A stretch of 21,684 nucleotides of DNA from a virus. Position 1 is the stretch's first letter; the number at the start of each line of letters is the position of its first letter. The stretch covers positions 1 to 21,684 of the IMG/VR virus record IMGVR_UViG_3300032163_000115, one strand, 5' to 3'. Below, piece by piece: positions 4,938 through 11,739 of this stretch. A program made the position numbers and the translations under genes. The notes beneath the pieces are model-generated. The model worked only from the letters and a program-made list of their open reading frames with translations, did not search any database and had not been told where the DNA came from.

Positions 4938-5651
4938 TTACAGGTTTGCCAGGAGTGCAGCTTCGTCCATGTTCAGGAGCGAATCTGCCTTGTCCATCAG
5001 AAACTGCACACACTCTGTAAACGATTCTGCTTGCGGAGAATTCGCAGTGTACAGTCCCAGTTGCGCTGAAAGCAACTTGAGAACCGGCTTGTTGGTCTTG
5101 ACTTGGTTAAACTTGTTGAGGAGAATCTTCGCAGCATTGCCGATCTGCTCTGCCGTCTTGCCAGTAACACCAGGCATGACTGCAATGTAGTCTTTGCTAA
5201 ATTCTTCCCACACTTCTTTGCTGATACCACCACCGCGACGCTCTGCTTTCGGCAGTGCAGCGATAGCTTCCCACGCAAGAGATTCCAGCGGAAAATTCTC
5301 TTGTGTGATGTTTTCATTGTCGTTGATGATTTCACGAGCGCGTGCAATAACCATGTCACGCACAACTTCTACCAACAGCTCCAATGCCTTACCACCAGTT
5401 TCGATGGATTTAACAATACCCTCAACACTGGGAACAGGAATGCTCAGTGCAACGGTAGGACGTTTGGTTTCGACTTTGGTGGTTTCATCTTTCACGGTTT
5501 TGAAGTGAAATTTCACATCAATGACATCAATCGTGTTGTCGAAGTTAGCCTTGATACTGGCGTGAACAGCAGCAGTTTCAGCGTCGATCTGCTCTTTGGT
5601 TTTTGCGGGAATAGCGGCGATGGTTGCAGAAACTTGATTGGCGGTATCCAT
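4938..5651 (-). CDS. hypothetical early protein, 237 aa, possible DNA-binding role
   Basis: Function not recognised. The first third includes a beta-like region (IDVIDVKFHFKTV, then PTVALSIPVPS); residues ~85-235 are mainly helical and end in a moderately acidic tail (MDKADSLLNMDEAALLANL). ATG at 5651 is preceded by AGGAGT. The gene is a single-gene transcription unit: a consensus-like sigma-70 promoter at 5734-5762, a leader with a predicted pseudoknot, and a strong terminator just after the stop. That wiring suggests an abundant, individually controlled protein. The helical part resembles in layout the 221-aa product of 11017-11682, so the two may be distant paralogs. A single-strand DNA-binding role is suggested only by the T4-gene-32-like leader and replication neighbourhood. 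Confidence 0.8.
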   Translation of the reverse strand: MDTANQVSATIAAIPAKTKEQIDAETAAVHASIKANFDNTIDVIDVKFHFKTVKDETTKVETKRPTVALSIPVPSVEGIVKSIETGGKALELLVEVVRDMVIARAREIINDNENITQENFPLESLAWEAIAALPKAERRGGGISKEVWEEFSKDYIAVMPGVTGKTAEQIGNAAKILLNKFNQVKTNKPVLKLLSAQLGLYTANSPQAESFTECVQFLMDKADSLLNMDEAALLANL

Positions 5652-5696
5652 GATGGATTTAAACTCCTGAGTGGTTGAAATGCTGTTGATTGATTT

Positions 5697-5729
5697 GACG
5701 CATTTTTATCGGATGCGTCTCAACCGATA
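5697..5729 (-). promoter_or_regulatory. predicted H-type RNA pseudoknot in the leader of the 237-aa gene
   Basis: Read as RNA on the minus strand: stem 1 UAUCGG (5729-5724) with CCGAUA (5712-5707), 6 pairs; stem 2 GACGCAU (5719-5713) with AUGCGUC (5703-5697), 7 pairs. Loops are UUGA (4), none, and AAA (3). The stems interleave, giving an H-type pseudoknot with 26 of 33 bases in Watson-Crick pairs and an A-only third loop. It starts at or next to the predicted transcription start and ends 45 bases before the ATG, with an A/U-rich, apparently unpaired stretch and the AGGAGT ribosome site between. The same bases could instead be DNA operator dyads. Confidence 0.6.
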
Positions 5730-5733
5730 GATC

Positions 5734-5762
5734 ATTGTCCCACAAAAGCGGGTTCGAGTCAA
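5734..5762 (-). promoter_or_regulatory. sigma-70-type promoter
   Basis: Minus-strand TTGACT (5762-5757), 17-base spacer, GACAAT (5739-5734). The predicted start is near 5727-5729, at the 5' edge of the pseudoknot, so transcripts should carry a leader of about 77 bases. It lies in the gap between the helicase gene's stop and the 237-aa gene, with no terminator between, so helicase transcripts may also read through. Confidence 0.75.
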
Positions 5763-5790
5763 GCCCCATTTTTTAATAGTTACAGTTGTG

Positions 5791-10402: not shown

Positions 10403-10798
10403 TTATTGTGTTGTGGGGTTGGACCATTTCCAGAACAACGGGCACAGTGGATATTCAACCCGCAAGACGGATGTTTGCTTTTTCCTTACAGCATCAGCAT
10501 ACGCAGTAGCATACGCAGCATCAGCATCAGCAGCATACGCAGCATCAGCATCAACATATGCATACGTAGCATATTTAGCATCAGCATACGCAGCATATGC
10601 AGCATCAGTATTAGCAGCATACTTAGCAATAGCAGTATACTTTTTCCACAATACCGTTTTAATAAGCCAATGCATCCAATCCGAGCGTGCGCAGTTATTC
10701 CACGCTGTTTGTGCATCGGGCTGTGTAGCAGCCCAGTTTATTGCCTCTTTACACGCACCTAATTCTTCCAGCTGAATAACATACCATTTCTTTTCCAT
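10403..10798 (-). CDS. Ala/Tyr-repeat protein resembling putative immunity (Imm5-like) proteins, 131 aa
   Basis: Residues 1-55 read MEKKWYVIQLEELGACKEAI and later AWNNCARSDWMHWLI. The pattern ACkEAi.WA...q...aW..C.r.DWM.WL matches, from memory, an N-terminal motif shared by phage and bacterial proteins labelled putative immunity proteins. Residues ~58-104 are a low-complexity Ala/Tyr/Asp repeat (YAAYADA, AAYAADADAAYA), also seen in those relatives, perhaps a long helical rod. ATG at 10798 is preceded by AGGTG at 6 bases spacing. The plus strand is also open across the repeat, but only the minus strand has a ribosome site and the family-like N-terminus. It stands upstream of small genes and behind its own TATAAT-type promoter. 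Function in the phage is unknown. Confidence 0.75.
   Translation of the reverse strand: MEKKWYVIQLEELGACKEAINWAATQPDAQTAWNNCARSDWMHWLIKTVLWKKYTAIAKYAANTDAAYAAYADAKYATYAYVDADAAYAADADAAYATAYADAVRKKQTSVLRVEYPLCPLFWKWSNPTTQ
10490..10640. repeat. degenerate GCATCAGCATACGCA tandem repeats inside a gene
   Basis: About 150 bases built from shuffled GCATCA, GCATAC and GCA units encode the Ala/Tyr repeat of the 131-aa protein. All units are multiples of 3, so gain or loss would keep the reading frame and change only rod length. Confidence 0.8.
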
Positions 10799-11016: not shown

Positions 11017-11682
11017 TCATAGCGCACCTTCCTCAACCATTGCCGCTTGCAGCTTATGAGCATCGCTCATCTTCTGCACCCGCGCTGTCAGTGCCTTCGC
11101 TTTCCCATCGTCCCCACCGAACGCGAACACCTTCAGCAGCTGGTCACATACGGCAGGCGCGAAATTCGGCTTGCCGCCATTCATACTGACAATCAGCGCC
11201 TGATATTGAGCGTTGAATTGTTCCAGTTTGGCGACCTGCGGCGGTGTCGGATTAGCACCGATCCCGAACTTCGCAGCCAGCGCCGCGACTAGACTAGGCG
11301 CAATGGTATCGGTGTACCACTCCACCATTTGCTCATCCGTCCACGTAGAAACCTCTCCGAGCTTGGCGATGCAGGAATCAACGCTCAATTCCGCATCACT
11401 CACGCTACGCGCACCCGCTTCGAACTGATCCTTGACGATGGCATTCTGCGCTACTTCTAACAACTGAGAAATGATGTACGGGCGCAGCGCCATCATTTGA
11501 GCCTCGGTGATCGTGCCGACCTGCGGGATACTGGCGCAATGGTTCTCGAATCGCTTTGCCACCGTCTTTCCATCCTTGTCTTTCCCAGCCTTGTAATGAA
11601 CCGGCACCAAACGCTGACCCTCGAATGCGCCCTTGACGCTCGACGCCAGAACGATGTTATGAGTGGAACTGATTTGTGACAT
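11017..11682 (-). CDS. hypothetical early protein, 221 aa
   Basis: Function not recognised. ATG at 11682 with AGGAGA 8 bases upstream. An N-terminal beta-like domain (NIVLASSVKGAFEGQRLVPV, then a Lys/Asp-rich turn KAGKDKDGK) is followed by a helical body; it ends in a charged helix. It is its own unit, with a promoter-like sequence at 11740-11768 and a strong terminator at 10940-10965, as for the 237-aa gene at 4938-5651, and the two share a beta-then-helical layout with pieces such as LLEVAQNAI versus LVEVVRDMV. They may be distant paralogs. The gene is more GC-rich than its neighbours. Being nearest the divergent centre, it is probably expressed early. Confidence 0.8.
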   Translation of the reverse strand: MSQISSTHNIVLASSVKGAFEGQRLVPVHYKAGKDKDGKTVAKRFENHCASIPQVGTITEAQMMALRPYIISQLLEVAQNAIVKDQFEAGARSVSDAELSVDSCIAKLGEVSTWTDEQMVEWYTDTIAPSLVAALAAKFGIGANPTPPQVAKLEQFNAQYQALIVSMNGGKPNFAPAVCDQLLKVFAFGGDDGKAKALTARVQKMSDAHKLQAAMVEEGAL

Positions 11683-11739
11683 GGTACACTCTCCTAGTAG
11701 GTGATCCTGCTATCCGCACCCGGACTGCGTGCGAACCTC

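Follow-up and report, generated by a model that had tools for sequence, protein, structure and literature searches.

The leader of gene 32 is the textbook pseudoknot operator in phage mRNA. A viral DNA of 21,684 nucleotides (referred to as the window), a fragment of an IMG/VR contig, carries a perfectly paired pseudoknot ahead of a gene for a 237-aa protein of unstudied function, which raises the question of whether such a fold is a control element or a product of chance and, if the former, what it controls. An earlier note, made from the letters of the window, had compared it with the T4 gene 32 leader and suggested that the 237-aa protein might be an unrecognised single-strand DNA-binding protein (SSB).

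The leader and its gene

The pseudoknot is of the H-type and occupies positions 5729-5697 on the minus strand. It begins with the 5' strand of stem 1 (UAUCGG, 5724-5729), for which homologues have AUCGG(C/U) or CUGG(C/U) at the equivalent site. Loop 1 (UUGA, 5720-5723) and the 5' strand of stem 2 (GACGCAU, 5713-5719) follow, and the 3' strand of stem 1 (CCGAUA, 5707-5712) directly abuts stem 2, i.e. loop 2 has a length of zero. Loop 3 (AAA, 5704-5706) leads into the 3' strand of stem 2 (AUGCGUC, 5697-5703). The two perfect interleaved stems of 6 and 7 pairs with loops of 4, 0, and 3 nucleotides were exactly as first described, both in coordinates and in sequence. In A-form geometry, a loop 3 of 3 nucleotides is tight across 6 pairs of stem 1, and therefore the outer U-A pair of this stem probably frays. 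A rival non-knotted fold of the window leader (GGUUGA/UUCAACC) reached -16.2, similar within error to the rough pseudoknot estimate of -15.4, which was calculated from Turner stacks (a few G-U steps being approximated) plus a flat penalty. Searches of the window and of the loci of nine relatives with Rfam gave no family match at the curated score. A reading of GGTTCGAGTC, beside the promoter, as a tRNA or tRNA-like element was rejected because ARAGORN returned nothing.

A sigma-70-type promoter (TTGACT-17-GACAAT with TG ahead of the -10) is predicted at 5734-5762 on the minus strand from its consensus match, and matches of this kind were no commoner in the region than in shuffled sequence. The same promoter class was present upstream of nearly all homologues. 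Stem 1 begins 5 nucleotides past the -10 hexamer, the transcript start itself being predicted; in the family, the median distance was 8 nucleotides (5-9). G directly follows the -10 in 29 of 40 family leaders. On the opposite strand of the window, a terminator-like palindrome (GGGTTCGAGTCAAGCCC and then T6, plus strand, 5750-5766) overlaps the -35 of the minus-strand promoter.

Between the pseudoknot and the ATG lies an open, G-poor leader of 45 nucleotides (5652-5696, minus strand), so that the placement proposed earlier, at the predicted transcript start and 45 nucleotides ahead of the start codon, was borne out. The predicted ribosome-binding site AGGAGT (5668-5663) was likewise as described, but the label A/U-rich was too strong for a spacer that is rich in A and C and poor in G (A18 C12 U11 G4, 64% A+U). 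The gene itself (4938-5651, minus strand) has about 70 homologues and encodes a protein with a predicted beta hairpin plus helices. A gene for a Dda-like helicase lies upstream, and genes for a Cas4-like exonuclease and a Sak4-like protein are among those downstream.

Conservation in homologous leaders

Perfect pseudoknots of 6 plus 7 pairs with the same loop ranges occurred 17 times in 100 shuffled window strands, an expectation of about 0.3 per window when both strands are counted. The fold alone therefore proves little, and homologues were collected. Such a pseudoknot at a promoter start is rare, and when the strongest hairpin of the window leader was held fixed and the remainder permuted, a p value of 0.010-0.013 was obtained.

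Initial searches with the 237-aa protein yielded 48 loci, and a later search returned the same 48. Nearly every homologue possessed its own strong promoter-like sequence. The first 42 nucleotides of the family leaders had a mean fold z-score of -1.8 compared with -0.02 at 86 control promoter-like sites (p = 4e-10), whereas the following 42 nucleotides, the counterpart of the open stretch in the window, were unstructured (z about 0) and G-poor (12% G). The difference between sense and antisense fold z-scores was slight (p 0.02), and energies on the antisense strand were no weaker; thus, selection at the RNA level was not proven by that comparison. In the first set of 40 leaders, the evidence for an extra crossing stem was marginal under a null model preserving the hairpin (6 of 40 at p < 0.05; Fisher combined p 0.19), and the knots seemed dispersed across the tree. 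This impression shifted once contigs bearing an SSB gene added further homologue leaders. With an SSB candidate of about 145 aa as bait, 80 loci were found, and on their contigs lay homologues of the 237-aa gene missed by the initial searches. They contributed 36 more loci with leaders, of which 27 were usable and distinct; the knot was present in 18 of these 27.

Several leaders showed the window architecture with quite different letters: AACGGU UCA GGGAAUCU ACCGUU ACUAA AGAUUCCC in L229, AUCGGC UAAA GGGAACU GCCGAU CUAAUCAA AGUUCCC in L232, and CUGGC UUA GGGAAAGU GCCAG AACAA ACUUUCCC in L233. A strict detector was applied, requiring at least 4 pairs in stem 1, at least 5 in stem 2, loops of 1-6/0/3-9, and a start within 13 nucleotides of the -10. 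Strict pseudoknots at or below -15 were found in 21 of 67 distinct homologue leaders versus 9 of 2010 dinucleotide shuffles, and those at or below -19 in 18 of 67 versus 1 of 2010, counts that overstate independence since the leaders are kin and not independent events. Elsewhere in the same DNA, 10 of 542 other promoter-like sites reached -15, compared with the 21 of 67 at family promoters. With the strongest hairpin fixed and the rest permuted, 15 of the 67 leaders were significant at p <= 0.02. Lineages without the pseudoknot mostly had a plain hairpin at the equivalent place, and a few homologues, L238/L054 and L043 among them, had no clear 5' structure.

A structural alignment was built from 26 pseudoknot leaders, comprising 22 found by the detector and four added by eye. 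Two-sided changes were seen at pairs 1-5 of stem 1 and pairs 1-7 of stem 2. Compensatory changes in homologous leaders, which the earlier note had named as its own test, were therefore present in both stems. The percentages for individual pairs are fitted values because detection requires pairing. As the detector picks paired sequences, the unbiased evidence lies in the letters of the loops and in the comparison with shuffles. The loop letters, on which the detector did not select, were conserved: the first letter of loop 1 is U in 22 of 26 leaders, and loop 3 contains hardly any G and ends with AA in 24 of 26.

In a quick FastTree tree, the pseudoknot was present in 19 of the 20 rows of a well-supported clade and in 26 of 69 rows overall, and its distribution required 8 changes versus 21 with shuffled labels. 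The window, L008, L217, and L235 were pseudoknot bearers isolated on this tree. The nearest relatives of the window (L030, L006, and L013) carry plain hairpins, and the window copy, being isolated in this way, may thus be an independent gain. Judged by these sequence comparisons, the window pseudoknot is very probably not a chance motif, its decisive support being conservation in homologues. This makes it a probable control element, retained at the same place in relatives. In the family, the fold was conserved at a fixed place past the promoter and was followed by an open leader.

Possible roles of the pseudoknot

The phages that carry the element are uncultivated and form a group whose contigs measure about 42-45 kb. 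We lean, by a small measure, toward a conserved 5'-terminal structure acting in post-transcriptional control, chiefly by protecting the 5' end. As to its main role taken separately, the chances of 5'-end protection are about even, those of a protein-bound operator are clearly lower, and some other role is unlikely. A single-gene unit of the replication/recombination module would yield an mRNA that begins with the H-type pseudoknot itself, which would fold while the first 35 or so nucleotides exit the polymerase. With a loop 2 of zero, the stems could stack end to end and bury the 5' end, and the remaining 45-nucleotide open, G-poor stretch would serve as a ribosome landing site. The structured end would shield the transcript from 5'-end-dependent decay of the RppH/RNase E type and keep the leader open, and a protected, open leader would allow much protein to be made off one promoter. 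Because a plain hairpin usually takes the place of a missing pseudoknot, what the leaders seem to require throughout is pairing at the 5' end plus an open stretch after it, and it is for this reason that 5'-end protection is favoured. That 5'-terminal stem-loops stabilise mRNA is an established effect in E. coli (references given in PMC3997798). Like the protective stem-loops of ompA, papA, and aprE, the window leader has a paired structure at or beside the predicted transcript start and then an open leader; unlike them, leaders of its type have a pseudoknot instead of a simple hairpin. A role in stability does not by itself explain the conserved loop letters.

These letters could be protein contacts if the leader were an operator of the gene 32 kind, on which either the 237-aa protein or the phage SSB nucleates at the pseudoknot, spreads along the leader, and stops translation. 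By analogy with T4, this is possible but would not be our first choice. The operator of T4 gene 32 consists of a 5' pseudoknot of about 28 nucleotides plus more than 40 nucleotides of less structured RNA (PMC535899), and the T2 pseudoknot comprises 36 nucleotides with helices of 5 and 7 pairs (PMC5684407). The anatomy of the window leader matches the T4 operator: a predicted H-type pseudoknot on the 5' side, with a stem 2 of 7 pairs as in T4/T2, and then about 45 nucleotides of open RNA through the ribosome-binding site to the start codon. Unlike in T4/T2, loop 1 has 4 nucleotides and loop 3 has 3, and the downstream gene, unlike that in T4, is not a recognisable SSB gene. The spacer contains one UUUAAA and, in a further difference from T4, no UUAAA repeats; nor were UUAAA/UAAA-type repeats enriched in the family spacers (29 UAAA versus 24 +/- 4 in shuffled spacers), which also vary in length from 25 to 84 nucleotides. 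The plain hairpins in sister lineages argue against an operator as well.

The identity of the protein is a further argument on that side. The model of the 237-aa protein showed a beta hairpin and helices and no OB fold, and no convincing match was obtained in PDB, Pfam, PHROGs, or phage records. At the sensitivities used, the family was absent from GenBank phages, Pfam, PHROGs, PDB, and GTDB genomes, and neither a sequence match nor an OB-fold match to DUF669 or phage SSB proteins was obtained. All of the 20 related contigs searched encode a separate SSB candidate. Thus, the T4 likeness proposed in the earlier note holds for the layout of pseudoknot and open leader, and its suggestion that the gene encodes an overlooked SSB is not supported.

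It is improbable that the element acts at the level of transcription, whether as a put-like antitermination RNA, as an attenuator acting early, or as an operator in the DNA that overlaps the start. It does lie directly at the predicted start. YYC[TG]G was present at positions 6-10 past the -10 in 12 of 40 family leaders, hairpin-type leaders included, and in none of 86 control sites. A T run closes some of the hairpin-type leaders, such as that of L030. However, most leaders have no T run, the covariation falls in RNA pairs, and both the spacing of the stems and the letters of the half-sites differ widely, a pattern ill-suited to a DNA operator. The DNA operator in particular was rejected for the variable spacing and the absence of shared half-sites. 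In the L030 (L002) leader, the hairpin ACTGGCTGC..GCAGCCAGT past the promoter is followed by six T, resembling an intrinsic terminator, and may be an attenuator in that lineage.

Chance pairing in the window leader, to which the expected frequency of such folds and the plain hairpins of the nearest tree relatives would point, is very improbable given that position, architecture, and loop letters all fit a family seen in many homologues.

The SSB candidate and its leaders

The candidate SSB of about 145 aa, a protein with DUF669/OB-fold character encoded near Sak4, was present in 20 of 20 related contigs searched. It gave weak matches to DUF669 and to a PHROG of SSBs. Its model had the order beta-beta-beta-alpha-beta-beta, and the best PDB matches were to the plasmid protein PrgE, which has a DNA-bound structure, SSB domains being found further down. 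DUF669 proteins adjoining sak4 include one in phage HK620 that was shown experimentally to be an SSB (PMC5928155). An SSB gene of the window's own was not found in its 21,684 nucleotides and would lie past the end of the fragment.

Pseudoknots were also detected in leaders of the relatives' SSB genes, namely in L134/L055, L138/L001, L139, and L143, and this finding speaks for operators in these phages. The stems differ in each of the four, whereas a loop 1 of a single A, a loop 2 of zero, a loop 3 of 7-10 nucleotides, and a stem 2 of 7 pairs are common to all, and the pseudoknots lie 41-54 nucleotides ahead of the ATG. Their geometry is that of the T2 gene 32 pseudoknot, to which they come nearer than the window leader does. 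They resemble the window element in being of the H-type with a loop 2 of zero and, in two cases, in being near a promoter, but they differ from it in loop 1, in loop 3, and in the gene that follows. The pseudoknot is directly past the promoter in L055 (minus strand; the same as L134) and in L143, and these were the two strongest pseudoknots among the promoter-like sites outside the family. Values at or below -19 were reached in 4 of 68 SSB-gene leaders versus 3 of 1700 shuffles.

Consequently, the likeness to gene 32 may hold for these phages as a group but fail for the 237-aa gene. A conserved, covarying leader pseudoknot occurs in phages unrelated to T4, and candidate relatives of it precede their own SSB gene. 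We suggest, tentatively and with the odds somewhat against it, that an undescribed family of leader pseudoknots controls a widely conserved, uncharacterised protein of the replication module, that a gene 32-like operator also arose in these phages before their SSB gene, which is of the non-homologous DUF669 type, and that control of ssDNA-module proteins by pseudoknots would be a recurrent phage strategy and not a speciality of T4. With 33 nucleotides, the window element is a compact, testable RNA and marks a presumably abundant, unstudied early protein; the pseudoknot and plain-hairpin versions of one leader offer a natural comparison.

Two other minus-strand genes of the window were noted. 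The protein of 221 aa (11017-11682) was considered as a paralogue of the 237-aa protein and rejected, as no significant match between them was seen, and no homologue of it was found in viral contigs. Its gene is preceded on the same strand (11713-11735) by a 7-pair hairpin, UUCGCAC..GUGCGGA with a 9-nucleotide loop, just past a -10-like GATAAT. An open reading frame at 10403-10798 encodes long Ala/Tyr/Asp repeats (AYAADADAAYA-like) and is probably of low-complexity or tandem-repeat character.
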